This document shows positions 1,018-52,500 of a stretch of DNA of 64,000 nucleotides, piece by piece. The stretch covers positions 30,326,184-30,390,183 of the forward strand of contig NC_037596.1 of assembly GCF_003073045.1 (NCBI RefSeq). Direction: 5' to 3'. Positions within the stretch are counted from its first letter, which is position 1; each line of letters starts with the position of its first letter. The translations under genes were made by a program, and so were the position numbers. Origin of the DNA: Pomacea canaliculata (lineage: Eukaryota > Mollusca > Gastropoda > Architaenioglossa > Ampullariidae). The notes under the pieces were generated by a model. It made no database searches and was not told the origin of the DNA. It saw nothing but the letters and a program-made list of their open reading frames with translations.

Positions 1018-1856
1018 ATGCACAGCTGCAAGTCCGGCTTGTGAATGGAACTGCCCCGTGGAATGGTCTCCTTGAGGTGTTGTACAGAGGAACATGGAGT
1101 CCAGTGCGTTGCCAAAGCTTTAGAAAACAAGAGACACAGGTGGTCTGCAGGATGCTGGGCTTCAACACGTGTGTAATGTTTTGTGATCTTGCGCCTATCT
1201 GCTGTGCAGTTATATTTGTTTTTTCATGTTATATTCACGATAAACAGACAATATACTACAGTTTCTTAAGCGGTCATTTTACTTTCGTCTTATTCTAACC
1301 ACTGAGCTCCATACCGATTCGAGATCTTTTTATATAAGATGCAATAAGATAAAAATGTTGATGCAAAAGCACTTGTGTGTCTGTGTGTAAGTGTGTGATT
1401 TGTTTACAAACATTAAATGGGACAATTAAGTAATATCAAAAGCAAGTAGACATAAAATAATGAAACAAGTTTATAAATATGTCGTTTGTACTAATTAACA
1501 AATATCGACTAATTTAGTCTATTATTAATTACAGATAATAAAAGAAATGCGCATGCATCCATATTGTTTTGTGAAAAGTGTTGATTTTGACTGCGACTTG
1601 TGAGTATATATTAAAATATCCTTTTGTTAAGTCGGTTAATTCTATAGATAAAAACAGACAAATGCACAAACATACCTTTTGTCAAACAGGTCGCAAGTTT
1701 ATACCGCTTCCATAGAGAAATTGGCCATCAGCTTCAACGATATCCTGTTTAACCTGAGGTGTACAGGCGAGGAGACCAGCTTAGAGAAGTGTAGTGATAC
1801 AGAGATTAGCAGTAACGCCTGGTGCCGCAATATCGTTGCTATCACCTGCAACTCAA
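1018..1856 (+). CDS. Gene A SRCR1 domain (exons 1018-1168 and 1690-1856)
   Basis: The first exon reads VRLVNGTAPWNG, LEVLYRGTW and VVCRMLGFNT, the standard N-terminal half of an SRCR domain. The second continues LRCTGEETSLEKC and ends AITCNS, the C-terminal half with paired cysteines. Phases fit (1 in, 2 between, 1 out). The first cysteine is displaced by one residue (PVRC, where paralogs have TVC), which may disturb the first disulphide. The intron donor is GTGTGTAAT. Confidence 0.82.
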
Positions 1857-4800
1857 GTAAGAATCTGTTGTTTCTATTCTGTTGTTTGTTGTGTCGCATT
1901 ATGTATCCTTAAATGGAGAAAAAGAAACATTGACGCATTTACCGTTTTTTATGAGAGATTTCCTTACAAAAGAGATATCAAGCATGCAAGAATATCTAGA
2001 GATTAGGTAAAACACATGATGTATCTTCACAACAATTAAAATGATAGGACTTAACAATATTGCAACGAATCTGAATTATATAAATGACTTTTTTCCTCTT
2101 TGTTGATGTAGAAACTGTTTTGTCTGCACAAATCAGCAAACGTATAAAGATCTAGTAAATATCTGACGACTTGTTACAGAAAACATACAAGTGCGATTGA
2201 TGGATATTCACGACATCGCACCTAACAGACTTGAGGTAAAGATACACATCGGAGTTGGTGAATGGCAGACACTGTGTGTGTTGTCTAACCTCACTGCCAG
2301 GGTCGTCTGTAGACAGCTCGGCTTACCATGGTAAGTTCTTTTCTCCTGTTAATGAACTAGTCTGTAAAAGGATGATGAATAGATTTACTGAAATTACACA
2401 GTTTAATTGAATGAACTATCAACCTTGCTAATCATTAAATGCTGATTTTGAAACTTTACATTTTACACACACAGCTAAACACATGTGTAACAATGTTCAC
2501 CTGTTACTCCATCCATCCATTTCTTCTTTATTCTCAATATATCCCTTTAGAAGGAAAATGCTTGACATGAGTTACTTTAGATGTAACAAAATATATCTTA
2601 TATATTTATATACAGTAGTGCAATAAATAAATATCTATCTACATAAATACTGGTCTATGAATGCAGACTGTTGTCGACTGAATTATACCATGATCTACTT
2701 ATTTATCTAACCTTGCACGATACGGACGCATAGCATAAAAGTTCTTCTGAGTTAAGAACACCTGAAGCATTTTAATTAAGCATTAATTATTATCAGAACA
2801 ATTGTTTTAAGCAAAAGGTAATATGCAATGTGTAGGCTTAGTGCGAGGACGTTTGTATATGAAGACTTTACGATGCGTGGTCATTTCTCACCTTGCCTTG
2901 GGAATGAGACTAGCATCATTGAGTGTCAGCATCAGAAGTCTAGTTACGGACTCTGCCATGATTACAACATCATTTGCACTGACTGTAAGAACTTCTATTT
3001 TACAAAAGTAAAACTCATCAACGTTTGTGCAATTTGTATGTTAGATTTAACGAATGAAATTACCTGTTTTGCATATGTAATACAGAAATAAAATATTGTA
3101 ACTGTTTCCAGTCTCATATTCCACTAAATGTGTAAATCTTTTCCGCAAATGCAACCAACTAAAGGGATGCAACTTTATATTTTAAACAAATTGCTACTAC
3201 TGCCTATTTAACCGTATATGCTTTATTTTATTATTCTATTTTAATTTGAAATTCTTTTTATAATCTAAATATTTTAAAAAATGCACTAGGTGATAAGTCT
3301 TATCTTTATACTCCTCTTCTACCTTTTTTATATATGGTTCTTACCCATACTGGTTTTTTTACCCTGTCACTTCATTTGTAGAGGGCCGGTAGTTCGGCGT
3401 TGTTGTTAGTTTTGGCGGGATCGGCATGCGAAGAAGTGACGGAAAGTTACGATCGCGAAAAGATCGCAAGTCTTACCCCTTCCCAGAGGTATATAGGGCA
3501 GAGCTGAGACGAAAGTGGAGAGGAGGCGTCGGCTGAGAGAGATGTGACATGTGACAGTAAGGGACAGACTGACTTTTAGCGCCTCTGGCGATGTGGAGCA
3601 GCCGTGGCCATTGTACTAGCCTTTGTATTAAAGAGTTGTGCAACTGATGACAAGCTCCTGCCTTTCTGGTTTGAGTGCTGGACTGTTGTGGTCATTGTTC
3701 AACCCCCCCCCCATTCGGTTACACATTCAATAAAAATGAGGTTCAGTTTGAGTCACACCTAATATCATTTTAGAAACCTAACGGAAAAAGAATAATTAAT
3801 ATCGTTTATGTTAAATAAAGAAAATATAATAATTGATTAGAAAAAACAAAAAGATTTTATTTTTTGATGCCGTGAGTAAAAAAAGGGGGTATCGATGTAA
3901 TACTTTGCTCTGCTTAACAGGCGTTTATTACATTTTTTGCTGTAGAACATGTAAGGAGTGATAGACATGACGTAGTTAGCCACATCTTTCTGCCGACAAA
4001 AATTAATTTTTAGTTTAATGCCGTTAACAATTTCAAGTGTTTTTTACAGCTCCTGTCAACATCCACACAAATAGTGGCAGTTATCCTTTAATGGAGGAAA
4101 CAAATGCTACTTTAAAGTGTGCGAGCGATGAGCGGTCTGATGTAATAAAGTACACGTGGCCAGAAAATGCAGGCGGGTTCCCTGATGGCAGTAGCCTGAT
4201 CATCACTAGAGTGACTAGGGAACATCATGGAAGGCGAGTGAGGTGTGAGGTGATGTACAGTGATGGGGAAGTTGTCTCCAGCGACAGAATGCAATTACAG
4301 GTTTACTGTGAGTATTGGGATCCACCTGCAATGAATGGTGTGAAAATGTGTTGTCTTATTCAGCGTTTCAAGTTAAAGATTCGCTAAATACGGACTAAAA
4401 AAAAAAATAAGTGACTAGGCTACTAGTGAAAAAGGTTTATGTACATGCTGTCATTAGTTGATCTTTTTTTCAGTGCGTGCGTGTGTTTGTATGTGTCTAT
4501 GCAAAGCTTTGAAGAGGTGTCAACAGAAATGGTTATTTTGTTTAAAGGGAGATGTCAAAAATAAATAAAGTCCACTCTCAGACACCTTAGTCTGATTGAA
4601 TAGATGATATGTGCGACGAATCACGTTCTATCGGCTTGTTTACAGATCGCCCGGTTATCAGGATAACACGGAGTGACAATCAGGGTCAGCCACTGTCCAC
4701 CTACACTGAGGTCATCAAGGGTCACAATGTGACGTTTGTGTGTGACGCTGACAGCAACCCGCCTCCTGCTTCCATCACGTGGTCAGGGAAAGTAAACAGC

Positions 4801-4942
4801 ACTACTGGGGAGCTACACATCATAGCAGCAGAGCAGACGACACACGACGGTAACTACACGTGTACCGTGGTCACTGAAACAGTTGATGATGACGAACGTC
4901 TCCCACTGACAGCATCTGACCAGCTTGCTATTATCATTAAAG
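1018..4942 (+). CDS. Gene A: SRCR-SRCR-Ig-Ig receptor-like gene (5' end outside window; carries a stop)
   Basis: Exons deduced by splice sites, phase and paralog comparison: 1018-1168, 1690-1856, 2180-2330, 2818-2984, 4050-4307, 4646-4942 (about 397 codons). The order is SRCR1 (two exons), SRCR2 (two exons), IgA, IgB. The signal-peptide exon must lie upstream, since genes B, D and E place it 2-3 kb before the first SRCR exon. The product would be an extracellular recognition protein; the ligand is unknown. An in-frame TAA at 2819-2821, right after the exon-4 acceptor, would end translation inside SRCR2, so the gene may be a recent pseudogene or allele. A downstream terminal exon is possible at 9973-10133. 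Exon identification is strong; gene function is uncertain. Confidence 0.72.
2180..2984 (+). CDS. Gene A SRCR2 domain (exons 2180-2330 and 2818-2984), with premature TAA
   Basis: The first exon ends with LTARVVCRQLGLPW, typical of the SRCR middle; the second carries CLGNETSIIECQ and the last cysteines. Joining TG|G across the intron gives tryptophan, and the next codon is TAA (2819-2821), where genes B and D have TAT. The remaining frame of the exon is open, so the lesion looks recent or is a sequence error. Confidence 0.72.
3377..3723. mobile_element. Solo-LTR-like insertion in gene A intron
   Basis: The 347-bp insert starts TGTAGAGGG and ends GGTTACA, the TG...CA ends of an LTR. It is flanked by CATT on both sides (3373-3376 and 3724-3727). 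Genes B and D lack it at the same intron position, reading straight through CTTCATT. A TATATAG box (about 3491) and a GTATTAAAG stretch near the 3' end fit an LTR promoter and polyadenylation region. No internal coding part remains. Confidence 0.75.
4050..4307 (+). CDS. Gene A IgA domain exon
   Basis: A 258-nt exon in phase 1-1 encoding one Ig domain: core cysteines in NATLKC and RVRCEV, core tryptophan in [10 protein letters not shown]. It starts after TTTTTACAG and ends before GTGAGT. NAT is a possible N-glycosylation site. Confidence 0.85.
4646..4942 (+). CDS. Gene A IgB domain exon
   Basis: A 297-nt exon in phase 1-1 encoding an I-set-like Ig domain: [19 protein letters not shown] supplies the first core cysteine and the tryptophan, and [10 protein letters not shown] supplies the second cysteine with the YxC motif. 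Acidic DDD residues lie near the C-terminal end. Donor is AAAG|GTAATA. Confidence 0.87.
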
Positions 4943-5483
4943 GTAATATTGTCTTTATATCTCTCGCAACGATACGTATTGTATATTATCTGCCAGTGAT
5001 AAGAGATACTGTATTTAGAAACACAGTCTTTTTTGTTTTGTTTGTAAAAATGTCATAGAAAGAATGTAGATTTTACTCACTATGTAATTAGTCCTGTTTT
5101 CTTGATATTTTTAAGTTTTTAGTGAAGAAGCATAGTTATAAGCACACGCTACAAAAACTATACAGTGAAAGTAGTTAATGCACTTTCACATTATTATCTG
5201 TCGTTACCAGCATATTTAAACTTCTGTTATTGTTTTAGCAGCATATTGCTAAAATAATTATTAAAATCCAAGGGTGTGGTCCTTGTGAACCTAAAGCAAC
5301 AGAGCAAGTTAAAAGATATTCTGTACTGTTCTGTGGAAAAATCTTTGCAGTTTATCGCGTTTTCGATTCTTCAGAAAAAAAGAAAGAGACATTAAGTGAT
5401 TTCATTAGAGAATCAATTTGCTACATTTATAGATAAAACACCCTTATGGTTGAATAACTGGAAAATCAAAATGAAAACAGGTA

Positions 5484-17138: not shown

Positions 17139-17196
17139 ATGATGCGCTCAGTCCTCAGTGTCTGTGTGATGTTTACTCTTCTACTACAAGGTTTGA
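17139..17196 (+). CDS. Gene B signal-peptide exon
   Basis: Encodes MMRSVLSVCVMFTLLLQGL plus one base; splicing to the next exon adds N-A-Q, so cleavage after alanine is plausible. Donor A|GTAAGT. The first of two adjacent ATGs is used; the frame is the same for both. Matches 46461-46518 and 61029-61086. Confidence 0.85.
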
Positions 17197-20100
17197 GTAA
17201 GTACTCAACTACACTTTGTCTTAATATCGTTATGATGCTGCAATAAGTCCATGCCAGCCCCTGTCGTACTCGTGTGATGACCGACCTTTACAGCATCAGT
17301 AAAGTCAGCGACATGACAGTAGTATCACGTGACCCTGACTAGGCTCATAACAATCTCACCTGCAACATACTTGCATGACTGTTGCTGGTCATCACTGAAG
17401 CCTATATAGTGACACTTGTTCTATGTACTCGGAAAAAGATGCACTGAATGTATACAGCTTAGCAAACAGAAGAAACTCAGTAAAAAGAACGTCGTCCACT
17501 GTCATCTCACTGAAGGGATCAACACAAACAGAGACAGAAGAAATTCCATCAGCCAGGTGAATAATGCAACCTAGGACGACAGTAGAATTCTCAACTGGAA
17601 TGTTGGTGAAGTTTTATCCAAACTAGGTATCCCTGAATTAGTTAAATACCTATAGTAGTTTGATGTGGTATGCATAACTAAACCGTATATAAAGACCAAC
17701 CTTAAGTTACATAACTTTACCGACTACTGTTTGTATTTTGCTCCGGCTAAGAAACTGAGTCATCATGGTAGACCATTCGGGGCTGTTTTAGTCACGGTAA
17801 AGAGACAGGTACATTTATCGAACAAATAAACACTATGATCATATGGAGGTACTTATTACAAACCGAAAGATAATGAAGTTAGATAAAAATGTTATTTTGA
17901 TGTAATCAGGACAAGGATGCCGTTCAATCTGTTTACTTCTGTGCATCCAACGAGCTGTGTAAGGAAGAGATATTCCTGTCTTTAAAAGTCGAAAATAGTG
18001 TAGTCAGAACATCTGCCAGCCACTGACAGTGCGCACGACACGAACAGACCGCGAGAACCCACGTGGAAATGGAAAATAGACCGAAGTGTGGAACGATGAC
18101 AGGGTAAATAAATTTTAAGCAGCACTGAACAATGGAAAAGCCAGAGACAAACTTGCAAATGAGTCCTCCGAAATAGAACAAACTGAGAATGAAACGATTA
18201 ATGTGCTCGTCAACTGCCTACAGAAAGCGGCGACGTGAATGAGGAAAAGGGTTTTTACAGGTAACACAAGAAAGCAGCCAGACTGGTTTCCAGTGTTGTC
18301 CATAGGAATGGGAATCCCATGGGAAACATCCCGTGGGATGGGACGGGATGGGACAGGCATAAATTGCCATGGGATGGGATGGGACGGAATAGAAAAATAT
18401 GTCCCATGGACAACCCTGCTGGTTTCACCAAAAATGCACACAGGAATTAAAATCTTGTTTAAGTAAATACAGATGTCATAGTTCGGATCAGTCTTTATCA
18501 ATCAGTAGAAGCAAGGCAACAGTACTGGAGGCTAGTGATGGAGAAAAAGAGAAGATATAAAAAGGTAAAAGCAAAGAATTTGACAAAGCCAATCACTTAC
18601 CCCAAACTGTTTTGGAAAGTAATAAAATAATGTTTGGGTAACAGGGTGAAAGTACATGTATTACAAAAGATGAATGGATAAATCACTTTAAAGACGTTTT
18701 CCAAGATGATAACCATCAAATACCTGAAGCAGATTGCACAAATTTTGATAATCTGCCTGGAATAGAGGAACTCGACGAGACCATCAGAGAGCGAGGTACA
18801 TACCGCAATACGAGACCTCGAGTCGCAAAGTGTGTGACACAGAGAAAGTGTTAGTATTAGCCTATGAACAGGCAGTTGGCTTTTAAACTAAATACTTTTA
18901 GTAAATTTTTGCTAGCGGGAAATGTATATGTATATAACAGGAAGCTATAATTGTAACCATCTATAAGAAAGGCAATCAGGAGTGCCTGTAACTACAGAGT
19001 TATCTCCCTTGTAAGCGTGGTCTCATGTGTCGGTGTCCTTTATTTATTTGTTGGACATAGTTACAAAGTAATATAGAGAGGTTTATATAAAGCAAGGAAG
19101 GTGCTTTCTCTGAAATGTTTAATACATTTACTTATTCATTCTAGAATAGAAAAAAACATGTTTTTTACTGCTAGGTACAGTTGTTTTTATAAATTGGACA
19201 TGATAGTGTTGTACGTTAATCAACAGAGGAACAGAAATGTTTGATTTTACAGTCTGTAGGTAATATGATTTGCTGTAGCTCGTTACGAATTCACTTTCAT
19301 GGTTGATTAGATGCACAGAGTGAAGTTCGGCTTGTGAATGGAACTGCCCCGTGGAATGGTCTGCTTGAGATGTTGTACAGAGGAACATGGGGCACAGTGT
19401 GTGACTATATGTTTGGGAAACAAGAGACACAGGTGGTCTGCAGGATGCTGGGCTTCAACACGTGTGTAATGTTTTGTGCTCTTGCGCTTACATGCTGTGT
19501 AATTATATTTGTTTTATCATGTTACATTCAAGATAAACAGATAATATACTACAGTTTCTTAAGCGGTCATTTTACTTTCGTCTTATTCTAACCACTGAGC
19601 TCTATACCGATTTGAGATAATCTTTTTATATAAGATACAATAAGATACAAATTTTGATGCAGAGGCACTTGTGTGTCTGTGTGTAAGTGTGTCATTTGTT
19701 TACAAACATTAAAAGGGACAATTAAGTAATATCAAAAGGAAGTAGACATAAAATAATGAAACAAGTTCATAAATATGTCGTTTGTACTGAGTAAAAGAAA
19801 TATTGACTGACTTAGTCTATAACTAAAATCAGACAATAAAAGCAATGCGCCTGCTTGTATATGCGATTTGTTTTCTGTGTTGATTTTGACTGCATCTAAT
19901 CTGTATCTATTAAAATAAGTCGCTACGTTCTATAGATAAAAACAGACAAATGCAAAAACATACCTTTTGTCAAACAGGTCGCACGTTTATATCACGTCGC
20001 TATTAATAGACAGTATGAGCTACAACGATATCATGTTTGGCGACCTGAGGTGTACAGGAGAGGAGACCAGCTTAGAGAAGTGTAACTATACATGGATTAT

Positions 20101-23100
20101 GAGTGACGCCAGGTGCTCCTATGTTGTTGCTATCACCTGCAACTCACGTAAGAATCTGCTGTTTCTATTCTGTTGTTTGCTGTGTCCTCTAATGGAGAAA
20201 AAGAAACATTGACGCATTTACCATTTTAATGCAAGAATTCCTTACAAAAGAGATGTAGACCATGCAAGAATATTCAGAGATTAGGCACAACACATGACGT
20301 ATTTCCACAACAATCAAAATGTTAAGACTTAACTATATTGCAACGCATCTTAATTATGTAAGTGATTTTTGTTTTTTTGTTGATATAGAAACTGTTTTGT
20401 TTGCACGGATACTGAAGTGGAAATACAGATATCGGCAAACATAGAAATAGTGAATATCTCACGGCTTGTTACAGAAAACATACAGGTGCGATTGAACGTC
20501 ATCTCATCTAACAGAGGTGAAGTAGAGATACACATCGGAGTTGGTCATTGGTGGAGACTGTGTGTGTCGACTAACCTCACTGCCAGGGTCGTCTGTAGAC
20601 ACCTCGGCTTACCATGGTAAGTTCTTTTCTCCTGTTAGTGAACGAGTCTGTAAAAGATGATGAATACATTGTACTGAAATAACACAGTTTAAGAGAATGA
20701 ACTATCAACCTGTTGATTTTTAAACTTTACATTTTACACACACAGCTAAACACATGTCTAAACATGTTCACCTGTTACTCCATCCATCCATTCACTCTTT
20801 ACTTGCAATCTATCCCTATCCCTTCAAAACGAAAATGCTCGACATGAGTTACTTCAGATGTAACAAAACAGATCTTATATATTTATATAGTGGAGTCAAT
20901 AAACTCCTGTAATATAGTTGTTATGTTCTCATTAAGAGTATATCTATCTACATAAATACTGATCTTAGAATGCTGACTGTTGTCTGAATTATACCATTAT
21001 CTATTTATTTTTGTAACCTTGCACGATACGGATGCATAGCATAAAAGTTGTTCTGAACTAAGAACACCTGAAGCATTTCAATTAAGCATTAATAATTATC
21101 AGAACAATTGTCTTAAGCAAAAGGTATTCTGCAATGTTTAGGCTTAGTGCGAGGACATTTTTAAATGAAGACGTTTGGATCCGTGGTGATTTCTTATCTT
21201 GCCTGGGGAATGAAACTAGCATCGCTGAGTGTCAGCTTGAGACGTCTCGTGTCTGTCCGGGTTACACCATCACTTGCAGTAACTGTAAGAACTTCTATTT
21301 TATAAAAGTAAAACTCATCAACGTGTGTACAATTTATGTATGTTAGGTTTAACAAATGAAACTACATGTTTTGCATATGAAATACAGAAATAAAATATTG
21401 CATCTGTTTCCAGTCTCATAATCGACTAAATGTGTAAATCTTTTCCGCAAATTCAGCCAAATAAAGGGATGTAACTTTTTTATGAAAAAATGGACCACTG
21501 CTACTGCCTCTTTTACAGTGCATGTTCTACTTTATTATACTATTTTCATTTGAAATTCTTTTTATAATCTAATTTTTTTTTTGAAAATGCACTCGGTGAT
21601 AACTCTTATCTATATACTCTCCTACCTTTTCATACATGAAAACATGAACCTTTCCTACCCTTCCTGTTTTTGTTTTTGTTTGTTTGTTTGTTTGTTTTTT
21701 CCCGTCACTTCATTCAATAATGTTAAGTTTCAGTCACACCCGATATAATTTTAGGACCTAACGAAAGGGTATGATAAAGATCGTTTATGTTAAATTGTCA
21801 TGGACCATCCACAGACACGCGCATTCTTTCCACAAACCAAAATATCCTGATCGCTTGAGGGTGGGCGTACCTTCTTAGAGGCACGAATAATTATTCAATT
21901 CAAATATAATGTCAAATGAAACAAAGGCAAAGTATCCACACTCAAAGATTCACTCCTTCATTCGCCACACAAGATATATTACCAATATATTATCATTCAT
22001 CCAACGTACTATTAAAGTTAACAATAAAATCGACTCTCATAAATATTGTCACTGATGAAGAATAAAACAAACAAAAATGTTCGTTCTTAATGAAACATTA
22101 ACCTTTTATATTAAAGTCTTTGAGACCCTCCCAAGTCCTCTATTCTAATTAGTCCACTGATCTTCTTTCCACGAAGTCTATTTATTATTAAAATAAATGG
22201 TTTTTACGGTACCAACAGTTTACAAGCAGGACGTCTCGGTCTTGCGCATGCGGCCGCCTCCTAGGTGTTTGGCAGGATGATGTTAGATTAGCTGAAGGCC
22301 GGGAGGAAAACCTTTCTCCACGGCGCTTACTCTCAGGCTGTTAAGAACTGTCCCTTCCAGGCGACAGATGGAGGTCGGTGCACCAGTCTTGCACCAAGTT
22401 TTCCGTTCTGGGACCGTTGTTTTCTCGCTCACGCCAGTACTTCACTGTACTGCGGGATGCCCAAGCCACAGAGCTCCCCCACGGTGCGGACACGGACTAC
22501 AGTAACTCACGACCTGTGAAGTACATCCACCTGTAGTTTAACCACGGTATTACTTCCCGTAATACTTTTTTCCGCTGTCGCAGCAATAGCGAGAAAGTCC
22601 CGTGAAAATCCACCAGCTCCCACTTCGGTTCCGCCTTTAGCTCTCTGTCCACCGTTTTCTTCTCTAACGTAATTTTTCCTCTATCTTTTTCGTCACCTTA
22701 TTTTGACATCACAGTTTACGTCATTTGCTCAAGGGCAAACAACTTCCAGCCCACTACGCTAGATCAGATCAACCACGGTTGTCGATCTTCCCTCCTAACC
22801 CCCTCTACTTAGTACTTGTCCGTTACATAAATAAAGAAAATAAATGACTGTTTTAAAAAAAAATACTAATAGCTTATATCATTTTAATGCCGTGAGGAAA
22901 AAAAGAGGGCATTGTTGCAATATTTAGCTAAGCTAAAGAGGCGTTTGTTCATTATAAAATATTTAGTTCCCAAAGACAGATGGAGAGAAACAGAGAGAAA
23001 TATAGATTTAATTACATATTTTGCTTAAGAACGGGTTTTAAGGAGGGGAAAGATGAGGTAGTTGGTTACATCTTTCTGCGGAGGCGAATTAATTTTTAGT

Positions 23101-25207
23101 TTAATGTCGCTAACAGTTTCAAGTGTTTTTTTTTTACAGATCTTGTCAACATCCACACAAACAGTAGCAGGTATCCTTTAATGGAGGAAACAAATGCTAC
23201 TTTAAAGTGTGCGAGCAATGAGCGGTCTGATGTAATAAAGTACACGTGGCCAGAAAATGCAGGCGGGTTCCCTGACGGCAGTAGCCTGATCATCTATAGA
23301 GTGACCAGAAAACATAATGTAAGGCGAGTGAGGTGTGAGGCGATGTCTAGTGATGGTGAAGTTGTCTCCAGTGACACACTGCAATTACAGGTTTACTGTG
23401 AGTATTGGGATCCAGTGACAATGAATGTTATGAATAAGGCCACTTAGTCATCGACATCATATAGTGTCTTTACGTAAATGAGTTTCAAGTTTATCATCCC
23501 ACAGAAAAAAGTGCTTTATGTACAAGCTGTATACCTTGATCTTCTTTCTCTTTTTTTTTATAACCTACATGCAAAGTTAAGTGTGCTTGTATGTTTATAT
23601 GTGTAGCCGACAGAAACTGCTACTTTTGGTTGGAGATAGATGTTAGTAAAAACGAAGACACTTGCCTGATGTATAGATGATAGTTGAGACGAATCACGTG
23701 CTATCGGCTTGTTTACAGATCGCCCGGTTATCAGGATAACACGGAGTGACAATCATGGTCAGCCACTGTCCATCTACTCTGAGGTCATCAAGGGTCACAA
23801 TGTGACGTTTGTGTGTGACGCTGACAGCAACCCGCCTCCTGCTTCCATCACGTGGTCAGGGAAAGTAAACAGCTCTACTGGGGAGTTACACATCATAGCA
23901 GCACAGCAGACGACACACGACGGTATCTACACCTGTACCGTGGTCACTGAGACAGATGATGATGATGATCGTCTACCACTGATGACATCTTACCAATCTG
24001 TATTCATTGTTAAAGGTATTCTTTTCTTTACCTTTTGTTTTTCTCTCTCTTCTGATTGCGTTATTTACACCTTAAACATATTTTTTGTGTATTTGTCCAT
24101 AAAGTTTAATTAACTTGAAAACAAACTAAGTGTATGTGCAAAATGTCTAGAAAAAGTGTAACTTTTACGCTTAGAACATTTTAAGTAGCAAAAAAGACAT
24201 AAGGTAAACAGGTACTATTTCCTGCACAGGAAAAGCTTGCTTTATTGAATGTTAGTAACAATTGCATGCATTTTTAACAGTTTATGTCAACATCCATACA
24301 ACCAGCAGATATCCTTTAATGGAGGAAACAAATGCTACTTTAAAGTGTGAGAGCAATGAGCGGTCTGATGTAATAAAGTACACGTGGCCAGAAAGTGCAG
24401 GCGGGTTCCCTGATGGCAGTAACCTAATCATCACTAGAGTGACCAGGGAACATCATGGAAGGAGAGTGAGGTGTGAGGCGATCTCCAGTGATGGTGAAGT
24501 TGTCTCCAGTGACTCAGAGCAATTACAGGTTTACTGTGAGTATTGGGATCTAGCGGCAATGAATGTTGTGAATAAGGCCACTTAGTCATTGAGAACATTT
24601 AGTCTTAAAGCAAATGAATTTGCGGCCCTATGCTCCACTAGGGTCGATAAGGCTCAAGAGAGATTACCTGAGTTGAGAAAAAAAATACATGTCATTAACT
24701 GTCAAAAAAGTTTTATATTTGAGCTGCCACTATTAGTGAGTCTAACCTCTTTTTTTCGTGTGTGTTAGTGTGTGCGCGCGCGTGCGTGCGTGTGTATTTG
24801 CATGCAAGTGTCAACAGAAACACTTCAGGTTCATAAACTTGTCGAATTCGATATATGATATGTTTCACGAATCACATGCTATCGGCTTGTTTACAGATCG
24901 CCCGATTATCTGGATACGACGGAGTGATAATCAGGGTCAGCCCCTGTCCACCTACACTGAGGTCATCAAGGGTCACAATGTGACGTTTGTGTGTGACGCT
25001 GACAGCAACCCGCCTCCTGCTTCCATCACGTGGTTAGGGAAAGTGAGTAGCACTACTGGGGAGCTACACATCATAGCAGCACAGCAGACGACACACGAAG
25101 ATATTTACACCTGTACCGTGGTGACTGAAAGAAACGGTGATGATGAACGTCTACCACTGAGGGCATCTTCTCAAATTACACTGATCGTTAAAGGTACTAT
25201 TGCACAC

Positions 25208-26348: not shown

Positions 26349-26503
26349 ATACTCAGTCTCGTGTCCTGCTACTGAATGGAACTTGGTCGTGGAAAGGCCG
26401 CCTTGAAATATTGTACACTTGGACATGGAGCAAAGTCTGTGACGAAGGTTTCGAAAAACAAGAGGGGCAGGAGACCTGCAAGATGTTGCTCTTTGACAAG
26501 CCA
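26349..26503 (+). pseudogene. Orphan SRCR first-half exon
   Basis: After acceptor ACTTATCAG, a phase-1 frame reads VLLLNGTWSWKGRLEILY, WSKVCDEGFEKQE and TCKMLLFDK, an SRCR N-terminal half with both expected cysteines. The usual donor is altered, and no leader or partner exon was found nearby. Probably a remnant of another receptor gene, though the frame is still open. Confidence 0.6.
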
Positions 26504-34538: not shown

Positions 34539-37500
34539 GTAAGTTAAAAATGTTTCTTCATGGTGTTCCTTTTAGTGTGTGTGTGTGTGTGTGTGTTGAT
34601 CATCAATATAAGTATTGGTCTCATTAGTGATTAGAATTTACACTGTTGTTCTCTAGATTTTCTTTCTCTTTCTTGTGAGAGGAATACATTCTTAGGAATA
34701 CGTGCCGTATGAATACACAAGACACTAAACCATTGTGATAATAATCTGTTGAAGTAGTTATAAGAAATGACATTCTGATAAAAAAAAAAAACTGACTTTC
34801 ATTTTCTAAAGAAGGTGCATAAAATGCTAGCACATGGTAGAAAGCACACATCTGCGTCATATTGTCAATATTGTTCCCTGTGATTCTAGATACATGCATA
34901 TTGATACAGGAAGGACATGAACAATAAGTAGACATACACTTAATCAGACAGGCATCAATAGATATACGAAAAATACATATGCATAAATATACAAACTGAC
35001 AAACCCAGACATACATTGGTGTTGTAAATATTAAATATTTATAAAATCAGTCTCAAAGGCCAGTGTTGTATATTTCGCAGGACCTCGACACAGGCTGGCG
35101 TCCAATAACACGAGATAATAACATGAGAACTAAAATTTGGAAGTGACGAGATTAGTATCAAGAGCTTAGTGTGAACTCGCTGTTTCTGCACGCGCTCACA
35201 CACACACGCGTATACAACACAGATATACACGCACTCTTACATATCTTTACATACATAACACTCATATACACAAACACTCACACACACACACACACGCACG
35301 CACACACGCCATACATCGTAAGAGACAGTTTTTGAAAACGAAAATATGTCAGCGTATAACACAATAATCAACAAAATCTCACTAACTGAACCAGGAAATA
35401 GTTTCAGTCTATCACAATGATGTGAACAGTCCTGCCTTGTCCAATCAATTTTGTGCGCAATAAGTGTTAATGATATAAGTACAACTTATAAACTAATAAA
35501 ATAGTTTGAGACTGAGTATACGCAAATAGACATATGGATAGAATTTCCAAATATATACATACACAAGACAATGCATTTAATTCAGACAGTTAAAGCTCGA
35601 CTAATTTAAATTTATCAGGGGGCCAGTTGAAGGCGCGTTTGGCTAACGGGACATGGTGGGCAGGACGCCTGGAGGTGTTGTACAACGGGCAATGGAGTAC
35701 AGTGTGTGACGATGAATTTGATAAAAACGATGGTAAGGTGGCCTGTAGGATGCTGGGATTTTACAGGTTTGTAATTTGTTGTTCACTGTCTTTGTATTAC
35801 TCCCATCACATAATTTTTTTTCTAGATAATTTATAAATAAATGTCCTGATTTCTTTCTAACAACCAAAGTTAGCAAACCACATAACGTTTGAACAATGAT
35901 CTTAAAATATAACTTACTTTTTGTTTGGTTCCTTTGTGTTTTCATTAGCTTAACTGTTTTTTGCGAGGTTTGTTTAAAAAAAAATTATCGTCACCGATAA
36001 ATGAAAATCTGTTAATTTTAAATTGAGATAGTAGCGAGTCCTTACTCATCATTCGCAGCCTTCTTGTTTACTGTTGTAGTTTTTTTTATGCTTTGTCCAT
36101 TTAGGTCGCTTGTATGTACGCTTTATATTCTCCAAATGTGTGATAAATCTGACAAGTGCAACATTTTGTTTTCAGTCCCGGAGTATTAGTTGTGGGCTCC
36201 TCTGTATTTGGAGCAGGTTCAGGAGAGATTTTGCTCGACGACCTGGAGTGTAGGGGTACAGAAGCCAGTCTGGAGGAGTGTTATCACAAGGGGTACTATT
36301 CTCACAACTGTGGGCACACAGAAGATGTTGGTGTCGTCTGCAATAATTTAAAGAGTAAGAACTCTTTTTCTTTTATTAAGAGCATGTGACGCACATTTTT
36401 TTTTTCATTTTACAATTGTGTAGACTACTAGACACTACGGTAGTAACCGGCCTTGTGATGGCCGGTTAAATAAAAAAAACCCCAAAATAACAAAGGATGA
36501 AGAGATTATTAAGAAAAAGCGATGTTTTATGTACGTTTCTAGGCGTCAATAACATTTTATTTAGCCTGCGAAGAACACGTAATCTGATTTCTATCAGTCC
36601 ATCCAACATACTATTTAATTGACTATTCTAATAATGCCCATACTCTAAGCTTTGTCACTTCCTAATTAAAAGACTGTAGTGCTTCTCACTAAGGGAGACA
36701 TAAATGATGTTGAACTGAATGCAACAAATTTTAACAGAATTAGTTAAAATACTTCAACTTGTGATTTGCATATCAGGCTAACTTAGCATTTAATCAGTAG
36801 AAGAATAGAGGGTTAACTGTTGATTAAAAACGCAATTTCAGTTTTTTTTTTGTTTTACCGAAGAGGAATACATAATCTGAGCAATATAAATCCGTCTCAC
36901 ATAAAGTTTAAATTTTACAGCATGGGTGGCATGAATAATGTTGAACTGAAAAATTAAGATTTTTCTCAGAATCATGAAAAAAAACCACACGTGAGCTCTT
37001 TACCTTCAAGTGAGGTTTCTTGTGCTTATAGCTAGTACAAGAAACCAGGCTGCAGATTATTTATCACATTGTAACACGTGGTTATGATAACACCTGGTTA
37101 TGATATTGAAAGCTTTCTAATTTATTTCAGTAATATCTTCTTCTAGCAGGTATTTGGCCTTCGGGGGTAACAAGAAAGTGTTATTTTATTTTAAATCAAA
37201 AAAATGCTTACACTGTGAGTATATTAAAAAAAAACATAGTAATGAAGGTTTAGTCAACAATTGCTGAATATATTTTTATAACAATCAGCAGTCCAGCTGA
37301 CAGCTTGTGTATAATTTGTATGTTAGGTTTAACGAATGAAATTACGTTTATGGAATACAGAAATAAAATATTGTAACTGTTTCCAGTCTCATATTTGGCT
37401 AAATGTGTAAATCTTTTCCGAAAATGCAGCAAACTAAAGGATGCAACTTTTTATTTAAAAGAGAAAGACCGCTACTGCTTCTTCCTTAACAGTACATGTT

Positions 37501-38847
37501 TTATTTAATTTATTCTATTTTCATTTGAAATTCTTCGTGTAATTTAAATATTTAAAAAATGGACTCTGTGACAATCTTTATCTTTATATTTATACTCTCC
37601 TTCTACCTTTTCATACATGTTTATGATAAACCTATCTTACTCCTACTGTTTTCTTCTTTTCCCCGGCACTTAATTCAATAATGTTAAGGCTCAGTTTAAG
37701 TCACATAGGTTATAATTTTAGGAACCTAAAAAATGTGAATGATAAACATCGTTCATGTTAAATAAAGAAAATATATCACTTTTTAGAAAAAAATAATAGA
37801 TTTAACTTTTGATTCCGTGAAGATAAAAAGGGCGCATCGTTGCAGTACTTAGCACTGCTAAAGAGGCGTTTACTCATTTTAAAATATTTAGTTACGAGAC
37901 AAAGATTTAATTACATGTTTTGCTTAAGAACATGTAAGGAGAGGATAGACATAAGGTAGTTGGCTGCTGAGGCAAATTAATTTTAAGTTTAATGTCACTA
38001 ACAGTTTCAAGTATTTTTCACAGTTTCTGTCAACATCCACACAAACAGTAGCAGATTTCCTTTCATGGAGGAAACAAATGCTACTTTAAAGTGTGCGAGC
38101 AATGAGCGGTCTGATGTAATAAAGTACACGTGGCCAGAAAATGCAGGCGGGTTCCCTGATGGCAGTAGCCTGATCATCACTAGAGTGACCAGGGAACATC
38201 ATGGAAGCCGAGTGAGGTGTGAGGCGATGTACAGTGATGGTGAAGTTGTCTCCAGTGACACACTGCAATTACAGGTTTACTGTGAGTATTGGGATCCAAC
38301 GGCTATGAATCCTGTGGAAATAATCGCTAAATACGGACTAAAAAGAAAGGGGACTACGCTACTTATGAAAGTCCTTTATGCACAAGCTGTCATTAGTTGA
38401 TTTTTTTCCCTGCCTGCGTGTGTTTGTATGTGTATATGTAAAGCTGTGAACAGGTGTCAGCAGTAATGGTTTTTTTTTTAAGGGAAACACCTAAGTCTGA
38501 TTGAACAGATGATATGTTTGACGAATCACGTGCTATCGGTTTGTTTACAGATCGCCCAGTTATCAGGATAACACGGAGTGACAATCAGAGTCAGCCACTG
38601 TCCACCTACTCTGAGGTCATCAAGGGTCACAATGTGACGTTTGTGTGTGACGCTGACAGCAACCCGCCTCCTGCTTCCATCACGTGGTCAGGGAAAGTAA
38701 ACAGCACTACTGGGGAGCTACACATCATAGCAGCACAGCAGACGACACACGACGGTAACTACACCTGTACCGTGGTCACTCAGACAGATGATGACGATGA
38801 TCGTCTACCACTGATAGCATCTTACCAGCTTGCTTTTATCGTTAAAG
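34484..38847 (+). CDS. Gene C: signal peptide, one SRCR, two Ig domains (chimeric)
   Basis: Exons: 34484-34538 (leader), 35619-35766 and 36176-36354 (SRCR), 38024-38281 (IgA), 38551-38847 (IgB); about 312 codons, no internal stop. The leader and SRCR differ from the other genes, but from about 37305, within the intron before IgA, the DNA follows gene A. Predicted secreted or surface recognition protein. Reading on past the IgB donor would add a short tail ending at 38900, so a secreted form by intron retention is conceivable. The 3' end is otherwise unresolved. Confidence 0.78.
35619..36354 (+). CDS. Gene C SRCR domain (exons 35619-35766 and 36176-36354)
   Basis: The most canonical SRCR here: [23 protein letters not shown], then [23 protein letters not shown] and VGVVCNN, six cysteines (group-A-like). 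The intron sits at the same position and phase as in SRCR1 of genes A, B and D. Confidence 0.9.
36445..36467. repeat. Short hairpin in gene C intron
   Basis: Perfect 8-bp arms AACCGGCC/GGCCGGTT around TTGTGAT. Function unknown. Confidence 0.6.
38024..38281 (+). CDS. Gene C IgA exon
   Basis: 258 nt, phase 1-1, after acceptor TTTTTCACAG. Core residues NATLKC, KYTW and RVRC present; differs from gene A by a few residues only. Confidence 0.87.
38551..38847 (+). CDS. Gene C IgB exon
   Basis: 297 nt, phase 1-1; FVC, ITW and NYTC core residues, DDDDD run. Donor AAAG|GTATTA. Confidence 0.87.
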
Positions 38848-39591
38848 GTATTATTATCTCTCTCTCTCAACGACACGTATTGTATTTTATCTGCCAGTAA
38901 TAAGAGATAATGTATTTAGAAACAGTCCTTTTTTGTCTTTTTTGTTTTGTTTGTAAAAATGTCATCGAAAGAATGTAGATCTTACTCATTATGTAATTAG
39001 ACCTGTTTATCGTGATATTTTTAAGTGTTCAGTGAATAAACATAGTTATAAGCACACGTTATAAAAACTATGCAGGGAGAGTAGTTAATACACCTTTAGA
39101 TTATTATCTGTCGTTACCAGTATATTTAAACTACTCTTATTTTTCTAGCAGCATACTGCTAAAATAATTATTAAAATCCAAGGGTCTGGTTCTTTTGAAA
39201 CTATAGTAGTAGAGCAAGTTAAAAGATACTGTTGTGTGAAAACACTCCTTGCAGAAAACTCTTCAGAAAAAAAGAAAGAGACATTAAGTGATTTCATTAG
39301 AGCCGCATTTTTCTACATGTGTAGATAAAACACTTTCTGGTTGATTAACTGGAGATCATATTGAAAAAAGGTATAGTCAGCGCAAAACTCGCCTATTTTC
39401 ATAAGGGTTAGAAGTTACTTATGTCGCTGCGAACCCCTGTTTAACCCTTGCCACACCCTTAGGGGTACGCGTTGTGAACCGCGGATGTGGACGGCTTCGT
39501 CGCTGGCGTGGGGTCACATACAGCATCAAAACATTGATGGCGCCGGGAAACACTCTGCACACACCGCTGCAATTTGATTCGTAAAAAAAAA

Positions 39592-46460: not shown

Positions 46461-46518
46461 ATGATGCGCTCAGTCCTCAGTGTCTGTGTGATGTTTACTC
46501 TTCTACTACAAGGTTTGA
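46461..46518 (+). CDS. Gene D signal-peptide exon
   Basis: Same 19-residue leader as gene B, phase 1 end, donor A|GTAAGT. The first SRCR exon supplies N-A-Q-R next. Confidence 0.85.
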
Positions 46519-49500
46519 GTAAGTACTCAATTACACTTTGTCTTAATATCGTTATGCTATGATGCTGCAAGAAGACCATGCCACCCCCTGTAGTACTCGT
46601 GTGATGACCGACCTTTACAGCATCAGTCAAGTCAGCGGCATGACTGGCTTATCACGTGACCCTGACTAGGTGACAGAAGCAACTCCATCACCAGGGGAAT
46701 AATGCAACCTATGAGAACATTAGAATACTTAATGTTGGTGGAGTTTTAACTAAACTAGGAATCACTGACTTTGTTAAATACCTATAGTAGTTAACTGACT
46801 CGTATATTGAGACCAGCCTCCAGTTACACAAGTCTACCGAGTATTGTTTGCATTTTGCTCCGGCTAAGAAACTGAGTCATCATGGTAGACCATCCGGTGC
46901 TGTTTTAGTAATGGTAAAGAGAAACGTACATTTATCGAACAAATAAACACTATAATATTATGGAGGTACTTATCATTAACCGAAAGATAATGAAGTTAGC
47001 TAAAGATGTTATTTTGATGTAATCAGGACAAGGATGCTGTTCAATCTGTTTAATGTTTTAGGTTACTTCTGTGCACCAAACGAGCTGTGTAAGGAAGAGA
47101 TATTCCTGTCTTTAAAAGTCGAAAGTAATGTACAGTCAGAACATCTGACAATCTCACTGACAATACGCACGACACGAACAGACCGCGAGAACCCACGTGG
47201 AAATGGAAAATAGACCGAAAAAGTAGTGTGGTACGGTGACAGAGTAAATGTTTCTTTAAGCAGCACTAAACACGGGAAAAGCCGGAGAAGATCTTGCAAA
47301 TGCGTCTTCCGGAATAGAAACAAAATGTGCATCAAGTGATTGGTCTGTTCGTGAACTGTCTAGAGTAAGCGGTGACATGTATGAGGAAAAAGTTTTTACA
47401 GGTAACCGCAAAAATGATAACTATCATATACCTGAAGTAGATTGCACACATCTTGATAATCTGCCTGAAATAGAGGAACTCGATGAGACCATTAGAGAGA
47501 GCGAGGTACATACCGCAATACGAAACCTCAAGTCGCAAAGTGTGTGGCACAGATAAAGTGTTTGTAGAATGTTGACATCAGCTGATGAACAGACAGTTGG
47601 CTTTTCAACTAAATATTTGTAGTCAATTTTTTTCTAGCAGGAAATGTCTATGTATATAAAATGAAGCTATAATTGTAACCATCTATAACAAAGGCAATCA
47701 CGAGTGCCACAGTAACTACAGAGTTATCTCCCTTCTAAGCGTGGTGGGGAAATGCTACTCATCAAGATTAAAGAGAACATTACATCAGTAACTTAAAAAA
47801 AAAAACCCAAGCTTTTACCTGAAACGTAAGCAGTCTTTAGGAAGGGCTATCCAACAACAGATAATATATTCTCATTGTGTGATGTGTGTAAGAAATATCT
47901 CAGTCAACAGGTCAAACGGTTTGCAAGGTTAGTGGATAGGGGCGTGTGACTCTGTCCAACAGGCAACATTCCTGACAGCCCTAATTATCTCTAATTATTT
48001 ACTAAGACAACAATAAATGTATGAATCTCCAAAAGCAAGTATTCGAAAGAATAACCAACTGACCGATAACAAAGAGAGAATACAGAAACTATTTTTGGCC
48101 ATTATTTTTCTTTTCCTGTATTCTTCAGATTTTTCATGTATCACAGCATTTAAAACATTGCATTTGGGCCAGACGATAAACATCATTGCAATATTTGTGA
48201 TGACATGCATTTATTCAGCTTTTCTTTTTGTGATCTCATGCGTCTGTGTCCTTTATTACTTTTATGTTTGACAGAGTTACAATGTAATATAGAGAGGTTT
48301 ATATAAAGCAAGTGCTTTCTCTGAAATGTGTAATACATTTACTTATTCATTCTAGAATAGAAAAAAAAAAGAAGATTTTTTACTGCTAGGTACAGTTGTT
48401 TTCATAAATTGGAGATGAGAGTGTCTCTTACGTAAATCAACAGAGGAACAGAAATGTTTTGATTTTCCAGTCTGTAGGTAATAAGATTTGCTGTAGCTCG
48501 TTACGAATTCACTTTCATCGTTGATTAGATGCACAGCGTGAAGTCCGGCTTGTGAATGGAACTGCCCCGTGGAATGGCCGCCTTGAGATGTTGTACAGAG
48601 GAAGATGGCGCACGGTGTGTGGTGATGGGTTTAGGAAACAAGATGCACAGGTGGTCTGCAGGAAGCTGGGCTACAACACGTGTGTAATGTTTTGTGATCT
48701 AATGTGCTGTGCAATTATATTTGTTTTTTCATGTTATATTGATGATAAACAGATGATATACTACAGTTTCTTAAGCGGTCATTTTACTTTCGTCTTATTC
48801 TAACCACTGAGCTCCATACCGATTCCAGATAATCTTTTTATATAAGATACAGTAAAAAAAATGTTGATACAACGCACTTACGCCTCTGTGTGTAAGTGTG
48901 TGATTTCTTTACAAACATTAAAAGGGACAATTAAGTAATATTAAAAACAATTAGACACAAAATAATGAAACAAGTTCATAAATATGTCGTTTGTACTGAT
49001 TAAAAAATATTGACTAACATAGTCTAATAAGACAGATAATGAAAGCAATGCGCCTGCAAATCGTTTTCTGAAAAAAGTGTTGATTTTGACTGCATTATTC
49101 TGTATCTATTAAAATAAGTCGGTACATTCTATAGATAAAAACAGACAAATGCACAAACATACCTTTTGTCAAACAGGTCGCACGTTTATACCACGTCGCT
49201 ATTAATAGACAGTGGGGGCTACAACTATATCGGGTTTGTCAACCTGAGGTGTACAGGCGAGGAGACCAGCTTAGATCAGTGTGGTCATATATGGGTTACC
49301 GGGACCCTGTCGTGCTCCCTTGTCATTGCTATCACTTGCAACTCAGGTAAGAATCTGTTGTTTCTATTCTGTTGTTTGCTGTGTAGCATTATGTATCCTC
49401 AAATGGAGTAAAATAAAACATTGACACATTTACTATTTTTTTTATGCAAGAAATCCTTACAAAAGAGATATCAAGCATGCAAGAATATCTCGAGATTAGG

Positions 49501-52500
49501 TAAAACACCTGGTGTATTTTCACAACAATTAAAATGTTTAGACTTTACAATATTGCAACGTATCTTAATTATATAAATGATTTTTGTCTTTCTGTTCATA
49601 AAGAAAGTCTTTTGTCTGTACAGATACTGAAGTGGCAATGTACAGGCAATTGCAAACTTATAGTGAATATCTGACGACTTGTTACAGAAAACGTACAAGT
49701 GCGATTAAATGTCATCTCACCTAACAGAGGTCGTGTAGAGGTAGACATCGGAGTTGGTTATTGGCGGACAGTGTGTGTGTCGTCTAACCTCACTGCCAGG
49801 GTCGTCTGTAGACAGCTCGGCTTAGCATGGTAAGTTCTTTTCTCCTGTTAGTGAACGTGTCTAAGAAAGAATGATGAATAGATTCTACTGAAATTACACA
49901 GTTTTAGGGAATGAACTATCAACCTTGCTAATCATTAAATACTGATTTTGAAACTTTACATTTTACACACACAGCTAAACTCATGTGTAAACATGTTCAC
50001 CTGTTACTCCATCCTTCATTCATTCTTTACTTACAATCTATCCCTATGCCTTTGAAACGACAATACTTGACATGAGTTACTTCAGATGTAACAAAACAGA
50101 TCTTATATATTTATATAGTGGAATAAATGCCTGTAATACAGTTGTTATGTTCTCATTAAGAAAATATCTATCTACATAAATACTGATGTGTGAATGCAGA
50201 CTGTTGTCGTCTCAATTATACCATGATCTGTTTATTTATCTAACCTTGTGCGATACACATGCATAGCATACAAGTTCTTCTGAATTAAGAACACCTGAAG
50301 CATTTTAATGAAGCATTACTAATTATCAGAACAATTGTTTTAAGCAAAAGGTATTCTGCAATGTTTAGGCTTGGTGCCAGGACGTTTGTATATAGAGACG
50401 GTTGGATCGCTGCTGATTTCCCATCTTGCCTTGGGAATGAGACTAGCATCACTGAGTGTCAGCTTGAGACGTCTATTTACAGCCACTGCCATGATTACAC
50501 CATCACTTGCAGTGACTGTAAGAACTTTGTTTCATAAAAGTAAAACTCATCAACGTGTGTACAATTTGTATGTTGGGATTAACGAATGAAACTAAATGTT
50601 TTGCATATGGAAAACAGAAATAAAATACTATAACTATTTCCGGTCTCATATTAGGCTAAATGTTTAAATTGTTTCCACAAATACAATCAACTAAACGGAT
50701 GCAACTTTCTATTTAAAAAAAAAGACCGCTACTCTTGTTTTTTCAACAGTACATGTTTTACTTCATTTAATCTAATTTTATTCTGTTTTCATTTCAAATT
50801 CTTTTTATAATCTAAATATTTTTGTTAAATGCACTCGGTGACAAGTCTTATCTATATACTCTCCTTCTAACTTTTCGTACATGTTATGATAACCCTGTCT
50901 TACCCTTGCTGGTTGTTTTTTTTTTTCATCACTTCATTTAATAATGTTAAGGTTCAGTATTAGTCACACCTGGTATAATTTTAGGGACCTAACCTAAAGG
51001 AATGATAAATATCGTTTATGTTAAATAAAGAAAATAAATGACTGTTCGAAAAAAAAAACTAATAGCTTTAATTTTTTTTAATGCCGTGAGAAAAGATTGG
51101 ACATTGGTGCAATATTTAAAGAGGCGTTAGTTCATTATGAAATATTGAGTTACGAAACAGAGATGGGGGGATAGAGAGAGAGAGAATGAGAGATTTAATT
51201 ACATATTTTGCTTAAAAACGTCTTATAAGGAGCGGAAAGATACATGGTCGTTGGATACATCTTTTGTGGAGGCGAATTAATTTTTTTTAGTTTAATGTCG
51301 CTAACAAATTGAAGTGTGTTTTACAGATATTGTCAACATCCATACAAATAGTAGCAGATATCCGTTAATGGATGAAACCAATGCTACTTTAAAGTGTGCG
51401 AGCAATGAGCGGTCTGGTGTAATAAAGTACACGTGGCCAGAAAATGCAGGCGGGTTCCCTGATGGCAGTAGCCTGATCATCACTACAGTGACCAGGGAAC
51501 ATAATGGAAGCCGAGTGAGGTGTGAGGCGATGTACAGTGATGGTGAAGTTGACTCCAGTGACACACTGCAATTACAGGTTTACTGTGAGTATTGGGATCC
51601 AATGACAATGAATGTGTGGGTGTGTGCTCGTGTGGACGTCTACTGGCGTGAACTGTCAATAAATGTATAAAATGAAGATTAAGACATTTGTCTCACTGAA
51701 TCGATGAGATGTCCTACGAATCACGTGCTGTAGGCTTGTTTACAGATCGCCCAGTTATCACGATAACACGGAGTGATAATCAGGGTCAGCCACTGTCCAC
51801 CTACACTGAGGTCATCAAGGGTCACAATGTGACGTTTGTGTGTGACGCTGACAGCAACCCGCCTCCTGCTTCCATCACGTGGTCAGGGAAAGTAAACAGC
51901 ACTACTGGGGAGCTACACATCATAGCAGCACAGCAGACGACACACGACGGTAACTACACCTGTACCGTGGTCACTGAGACAGTTGATGATGATGATCGCC
52001 TTCCGCTGATCGCTTCTTACCAGCTTGCTTTTATCGTTAAAGGTATCCTTATCCTTACCTCTCTATCTTTTTCTTTCTTTAACTCTCTCTGTGTCACAAA
52101 AGAGTAGTGATAATGCTATTTTGTGAGGTTTGCACTTTTGCTCTATTCACGAGACAGTCAGACGTGCTGGCAAACTGATCGACGGAAAGAGGGCGTTGCG
52201 GCCGTTTGAGTAAGAGCAATCATCGCATTAAGTGTATGTTCGCTAATTAAAAGACCGCTTACGTCATGACGGTCGCACAACATAGGACTGCAGGCCACTA
52301 GTGACGTAACAGACGTACCTCCAGGGACAATACGCACCTTGATTACGATTTAGAGAAGGATTAGATTGTCACAACGGGAGCTAGGAAAGGAAACCAGACA
52401 ATTAGGCATCGTAATTATACGAAGAGGCTGATGGGAAGTCTTGTCATACACTAGCTGTGATGTGTGATTAGTTGTAATGGTAGGTCATGTGGTATGACTG

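Follow-up and report, generated by a model that had tools for sequence, protein, structure and literature searches.

The window analysed here comprises 64,000 nucleotides of the snail Pomacea canaliculata (contig NC_037596.1, here C7, positions 30326184-30390183, forward strand) and carries genes that combine scavenger receptor cysteine-rich (SRCR) and immunoglobulin (Ig) domains. According to our own hidden Markov models (HMMs), the domain order in genes A, B and D is SRCR1 N-half, SRCR1 C-half, SRCR2 N-half, SRCR2 C-half, Ig1 and Ig2, and a second Ig pair is present in genes B and D. Our subject is the exon at 19978-20147, which encodes the C-terminal half of the SRCR1 domain of gene B, together with the two hypervariable patches within it. 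With the exons joined, gene B SRCR1 scored 70.8 bits (1.3e-19) and SRCR2 39.2 bits (8.9e-10) against PF00530, for which the curated cut-off is 26.1. Ig2 exceeded the Pfam cut-offs of Ig_3 (36.7 bits; cut-off 30), Ig_2 (33.0; 27) and ig (25.2; 21.8), and Ig1 reached just 17.6 bits against Ig_3, under the cut-off. A common predicted signal-peptide exon lies upstream in six of the eight genes examined (B, D and four tile genes); none was found for gene A, for which the window holds 1031 upstream bases, nor for one tile gene. The exon peptide had no match when compared with phage sequences. The features on which the analysis turns are as follows.

17139..17190, + strand: predicted signal-peptide exon of gene B (MMRSVLSVCVMFTLLLQ), splice end putative
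19311..19461, + strand: gene B SRCR1 N-half exon, own HMM 109 bits at 19325-19462, splice ends putative
19978..20147, + strand: gene B SRCR1 C-half exon, 170 bases, phase 1-1
20000..20044, + strand: hypervariable patch 1 of the gene B SRCR1 C-half, by codon counting (NG86), site models and diversity profile
20045..20083, + strand: conserved core LRCTGEETSLEKC of the gene B SRCR1 C-half, by NG86 and diversity profile
20084..20128, + strand: hypervariable patch 2 of the gene B SRCR1 C-half, by NG86, site models and diversity profile
49177..49346, + strand: gene D SRCR1 C-half exon, homologue of 19978-20147, by own HMM and alignment
1690..1856, + strand: gene A SRCR1 C-half exon, 167 bases, by own HMM

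The exon was searched for in the whole assembly (440,159,624 bases in 24 contigs). All 40 scored matches, from 49 candidates, lay on the plus strand of C7 between 29.56 and 30.58 Mb. The array holds at least 40 copies over about 1 Mb on one strand, with a median spacing of 22.5 kb (39 of the 40). When all 40 exons were inspected, 39 were open, in frame and had kept their splice sites, with lengths of 164, 167, 170, 179 or 182 bases among the open copies, each in frame; in the remaining copy, g29759, the acceptor and the frame are broken. Seven copies (g29562, g29602, g29948, g29959, g30022, g30043 and g30052) were placed by eye in a more diverged clade. The set used for the ratio of nonsynonymous to synonymous change (dN/dS, omega) comprised 32 copies, namely the 40 minus these seven and g29759. 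Copies g29930 and g29998 (C7:29930507 and 29998188, 68 kb apart) are nearly identical across the exon and introns and may stem from a very recent duplication or represent alleles that were not merged; the N-half exon of g29998 is partly out of frame. This near-duplicate was kept in the codon counts of Nei and Gojobori (NG86), the pair test and the counts of patch peptides and acidic pairs, and excluded from the site models, diversity profile, conversion, Mantel, pairwise homoplasy index (PHI) and tree tests. The diversity profile and the run-length conversion test used 29 copies (also minus g29678 and g29723), the segment-tree tests 27, the Mantel tests 27, 18 and 24, and PHI on introns 27. 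Genome-wide, at least 197 matches to SRCR exons were obtained after scoring 150 of 1495 candidates. Other dense SRCR clusters lie at 7.75-8.0 Mb and 3.01-3.07 Mb of C1, 12.6-13.5 Mb of C11 and 13.77-13.84 Mb of C13, and some SRCR domains in these clusters are encoded whole by a single exon.

A sequence-only reading of the window had called attention to positions 20084-20134 of gene B, and its counts proved exact: 21 of 51 bases differ from gene D (49283-49333), one of 38 differs in the adjoining intron (20148-20185 vs. 49347-49384), and gene A differs again (14/51 from B and 20/51 from D). The excess of exon over intron divergence stands for B and D, but at a smaller size. Over wider introns the two genes differ at 30 of 226 positions on the right (0.133) and 19 of 221 on the left (0.086), and the contrast becomes about 0.41 vs. 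0.11, not 0.03, because the 38 bases compared are the most conserved stretch of the intron. The intron start (20143-20187) is unusually conserved across copies, at 0.03-0.08 per 15-base step vs. the intron average of 0.11. The same reading had described one patch in the exon. That patch, patch 2, is real, but it is accompanied by a second (20000-20044), and three other SRCR half-exons behave alike. In the diversity profile, calculated in 15-base steps, two peaks of 0.34 and 0.37 are separated by a trough of 0.05, and diversity in the right intron is 0.03-0.11 over the first 120 bases or so. A pairwise count of indels in exon vs. intron was discarded, as naive DNA alignment of the patches introduced spurious paired gaps; it had given 1.10 gaps per pair in the exon and 3.05 in the intron, with multiples of three at 0.33 and 0.31, respectively.

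The proposal that the patch reflects diversifying selection was borne out across the whole array, by the codon counts, the site models, null simulations and the Ig domains as a control. First, in the 32 copies the whole exon had a dN of 0.268 and a dS of 0.179, and omega was 0.88 in the head, 1.75 in patch 1, 0.72 in the core, 2.23 in patch 2 and 0.63 in the tail. Both patches exceed 1; the flanking introns diverge by p = 0.142 and 0.110 in the same copies. Second, the site models, which were coded for this analysis and run on 31 copies, favoured M2a over M1a with twice the log-likelihood difference (2dL) at 122, 163 and 139 on the exon, left-intron and right-intron trees, respectively. M2a assigned an omega of 3.9-5.2 to 31-46% of the codons over the three trees, M8 vs. 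M8a agreed, and 13 codons exceeded a posterior of 0.95 on the exon tree. The highest 2dL in null simulations was 17.1 in 20 runs on one tree and 9.5 in 20 runs with mosaic histories. Finally, the proportion of nonsynonymous differences (pN) was higher than that of synonymous differences (pS) in the patches of 16/16 non-overlapping pairs (binomial P 1.3e-5, pooled counts), or 15/15 without g29998 (P 3.7e-5).

A germline hot spot, at which the patches simply mutate faster and no selection acts, would agree with a patch pS about twice that of the core. However, mutation rate alone is excluded, since omega is well above 1, and the variation spares the cysteines and the reading frame in nearly all copies. 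Divergence at fourfold sites was 0.09 in the patches vs. 0.148 elsewhere, measured on codon pairs sharing their first two bases in 21 and 13 codon columns, which argues against a hot spot as well as against imported blocks. Silent sites show no clear acceleration in the patches, and we regard the hot spot as extremely unlikely.

Copies probably exchange segments. Two units, the left intron together with patch 1, and the right intron together with the core and patch 2, would thereby have been partly reassorted. The trees of the left intron, the 5' part of the exon, its 3' part and the right intron rejected one another in all 12 approximately unbiased (AU) tests (P ≤8.2e-5). In Mantel tests (27 copies), patch 1 correlated with the left intron (0.50, P 0.0005), and patch 2 correlated with the core (0.47) and weakly with the right intron (0.27); the correlation of patch 1 with patch 2 was 0.23 (P 0.05). 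The left and right introns share no common history (r -0.18), and little signal resides in the right intron, whose own halves correlate at only 0.18 (P 0.12). PHI on introns was not significant (P 0.85, 0.17 and 0.20 on 15, 42 and 57 usable sites). Across the whole region it went in the direction opposite to recombination, and is uninformative there because the hypervariable sites cluster in the exon.

The segment trees, the unrelated histories of the two introns, the way in which patch 1 tracks the left intron and patch 2 the core, and the raised patch pS all speak for gene conversion, by which the patches would have come in as whole blocks, taken from other copies or from distant donors, and not have arisen through selection on point changes. 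This had been offered by the sequence-only reading as an alternative source of the variation, and the tests aimed at the blocks themselves went against it. The run-length conversion test flagged two of 406 pairs, neither with a run covering a patch. A search with the gene B patch returned 21 matches and one with the gene D patch three, all on C7 inside the array and none outside it within the reach of the search; the best partner apart from the query reached 86% for B and 81% for D, both within the array. These donor searches covered the B and D patches and not the remaining patches individually. In addition, the intron PHI values and the lower fourfold divergence inside the patches argue against imported blocks, as does the presence, beside an omega above 1, of 30 and 31 different peptides of the two patches among 32 copies. 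Conversion as the origin of the patch variation is largely refuted, and we consider it quite unlikely. With no clear acceleration of silent sites, and no donor for the B and D patches outside the array, selection on point changes is strongly supported as the main driver of patch variation. A combinatorial germline repertoire would draw on both processes: the core would serve as an exchange point, half-domain cassettes (left intron with patch 1; core with patch 2 and right intron) would be swapped among the roughly 40 copies, and selection would then tune them. This idea is tentative and we would not favour it at present; if true, every snail lineage would carry a particular collection of SRCR binding faces, built on what was once a metal-binding site.

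We then asked how far the signal extends along the protein. The SRCR1 N-half (20 copies) and SRCR2 N-half (26 copies, 25 in the models) were picked by text pattern from fetched stretches, which leaves out copies whose exons are broken or out of range; the SRCR2 C-half (8 copies), Ig1 and Ig2 (20 copies each) come from the window and the tile only, with thresholds on our own models of >55, 160 and 180 bits. The 2dL values were 81 and 142 for the SRCR1 N-half, 84 and 107 for the SRCR2 N-half and 55 for the SRCR2 C-half. For Ig1 and Ig2 omega was 0.57 each, with a dS (0.109 and 0.132) resembling that of the SRCR exons, and for the 13 copies of each behind a main-type SRCR1 it was 0.56 and 0.50. 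Given the high 2dL of the SRCR half-exons, and an Ig omega of about 0.57 with 2dL inside the null range, the selection signal is concentrated in the SRCR domains.

In SRCR1, 20 of 102 sites had a posterior above 0.95. The six cysteines of gene B SRCR1 each had a posterior of 0.00. To place the selected sites, we used SRCR8 of SALSA, which according to a passage of PMC7043408 binds cations, and by way of these its ligands, with D1019, D1020, D1058, D1059, N1081 and E1086, and loses binding when D1019 or D1020 is mutated. The same passage reports a shared surface for MARCO, CD6 and CD163 and proposes the cation face as a general ligand site of SRCR domains. The SALSA residues were transferred through CD163 domain 7, with a correspondence by spacing and motif that is our own assignment. 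Five of them mapped to SRCR1, and four of these five (all but D1059) exceeded 0.95, vs. 16 of the 97 other sites (Fisher P 0.005). Among sites within two residues of the mapped cation residues, 8/17 exceeded 0.95 vs. 12/85 (P 0.005). In the folded domain, the selected SRCR1 sites would lie together on one face. Acidic residues at both Asp-Asp positions (D1019 and D1020) occur in none of 20 copies, one of 20 has D, E, N or Q at D1019, D1020 and D1058 together, and each mapped cation position shows 5 to 8 kinds of residue in these copies. As judged by the aligned residues, the canonical SALSA/MARCO-type cation site is lost from SRCR1 of the tested array copies. The canonical motif is complete in gene C (35636-36344), which is outside the 20-copy set and lies beside genes that lost it.

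We propose, with fairly good confidence, that the locus encodes, as a germline array, recognition proteins of SRCR-Ig type in which a former metal-binding face was turned into a hypervariable binding face. The product would be a secreted or surface protein with a signal peptide, SRCR1, SRCR2 and one or two Ig pairs. After duplication, amino-acid change was favoured at a limited number of positions in both SRCR domains, with silent change remaining close to that of the introns, and there was little alteration of the cysteines, the SRCR1 core or the Ig domains. Each copy would present a different binding face, most likely toward microbial or parasite surfaces, and the Ig domains may act as a constant stem or effector part. 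P. canaliculata is described in part of PMC6129957 as an invasive snail that transmits nematode parasites. Tandem copies under positive selection at sites of the binding face, the mark of a germline-diversified receptor array, were found here, with the face assigned by alignment. The fast change at the probable ligand face, the conserved scaffold and Ig stem, the intact frames and the large tandem array are consistent with a germline-coded recognition repertoire, which would most simply serve defence. If this is true, a hypervariable germline-coded recognition family would be added to those of molluscs. The data also suggest that an SRCR cation face can turn into a specificity-determining surface, for which gene C would be the internal contrast within the window, and they provide residues that can be tested.

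The main rival on function is that the selected array has a role in reproduction (recognition between gametes or in the oviduct) or in self-recognition, and not in defence. Reproductive proteins evolve fast too. An SRCR protein of the Littorina oviduct has a species-specific structure, as a passage of PMC8614816 describes, but that protein is built differently, from TSP1, two SRCR domains and a C-type lectin domain. Moreover, an SRCR plus two-Ig lectin of P. canaliculata itself is placed among soluble immune factors in a section of PMC9178244. Both comparisons provide context and neither is a test of the array. We consider the reproductive role rather unlikely and prefer the recognition repertoire for defence.

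Several results weigh against the proposal of a selected recognition array. The first concerns the pair from which the selection claim had been drawn: in patch 2, B and D differ by 17 nonsynonymous and four synonymous changes over 35 N and 10 S sites, which is near the neutral share, so that the pair alone gives no evidence of selection and the signature emerges only across the whole array. The patch pS, at 0.193 vs. 0.094 in the core (NG86), is above the introns too, and upstream parts of the left intron reach a diversity of 0.29, near the patch values, in the multiple alignment of 29 copies. The Ig site models gave a weak signal of their own (2dL 7.7 and 15.7), inside the range of the exon null simulations. 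One cysteine of the exon is missing in three main-clade copies (g29684, g29896 and g30103), and alleles left in the assembly may be among the array copies (g29930 and g29998). A search for a membrane segment, with a comparison of the 3' ends, yielded two hydrophobic stretches only and nothing clear. Finally, the overlap with the cation site depends on alignment: E1086 lacks an equivalent in the CD163-based mapping, and the phmmer alignment shifts patch 2, such that N1081 pairs with D89 (not above 0.95) and E1086 with Y94 (above 0.95), giving four of six.

The remaining features of the window are listed here.

20474..20617, + strand: gene B SRCR2 N-half, by own HMM
21125..21283, + strand: gene B SRCR2 C-half, by own HMM
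23145..23399, + strand: gene B Ig1, conserved, by Pfam and own HMM
23718..24017, + strand: gene B Ig2, conserved, by Pfam and own HMM
24286..24537, + strand: gene B second Ig1, by own HMM
24896..25195, + strand: gene B second Ig2, by own HMM
46461..46512, + strand: predicted signal-peptide exon of gene D, splice end putative
48543..48680, + strand: gene D SRCR1 N-half, by own HMM
49687..49830, + strand: gene D SRCR2 N-half, by own HMM
50352..50513, + strand: gene D SRCR2 C-half, by own HMM
51332..52044, + strand: gene D first Ig1-Ig2 pair, by own HMM
53727..54605, + strand: gene D second Ig1-Ig2 pair, by own HMM
1032..1169, + strand: gene A SRCR1 N-half, by own HMM
2179..2331, + strand: gene A SRCR2 N-half, by own HMM
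2825..2980, + strand: gene A SRCR2 C-half, by own HMM
4055..4944, + strand: gene A Ig1-Ig2 pair, by own HMM
35636..36344, + strand: gene C divergent SRCR, two exons (joining putative), cation motif DD, LDD, HNC..TED
38029..38849, + strand: Ig1-Ig2 pair downstream of the gene C SRCR, by own HMM

Three further SRCR exons resembling the N-half, without an evident partner, occur at 7114-7221, 26363-26494 and 40570-40677. They sit 1-2.2 kb past the last Ig exon of A, B and C, and the frame around them holds stops in A and C.

FREP-type lectins (VIgL) have their Ig domains first and a C-terminal lectin-type domain after them. The order in the array, SRCR, SRCR, Ig, Ig, is the reverse, in a comparison that covers the array proteins up to their Ig domains. 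The FREP family of snails and the 185/333 and SRCR families of the sea urchin are likewise large or diversified immune families, according to published abstracts and parts of PMC10855680, and their domain make-up differs from that of the array; the word Pomacea has no occurrence in the main text of that paper. Closer in kind is the SRCR plus two-Ig lectin of the same species, reviewed in PMC9178244 (citing Gorbushin 2019, Dev Comp Immunol 94:35-58), which resembles the array in combining SRCR and Ig. Going by this review, the SRCR-Ig combination in P. canaliculata is already in print. The passage names one lectin and does not mention a tandem array, hypervariability or loss of the cation site. 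Literature searches found no paper on the array or its hypervariability, with most subscription papers outside their reach.

The SRCR domains of SALSA/DMBT1, MARCO and CD163 belong to the same family as those of the array, by Pfam and PDB sequence match. In MARCO, part of PMC4491621 reports three positively selected sites in a mammal data set (Bayes empirical Bayes (BEB) 0.70-0.98), two of which adjoin the WGTVCDD motif, a likeness to the array; the array differs in that its 20 of 102 SRCR1 sites above 0.95 come from tandem paralogues. The variable sites of the array fall in the ligand-binding region described for SALSA in the passage of PMC7043408. However, the cation site that is conserved in SALSA, MARCO and CD163 appears to be dismantled in SRCR1 of the array, where acidic residues at both Asp positions were found in none of the 20 copies.

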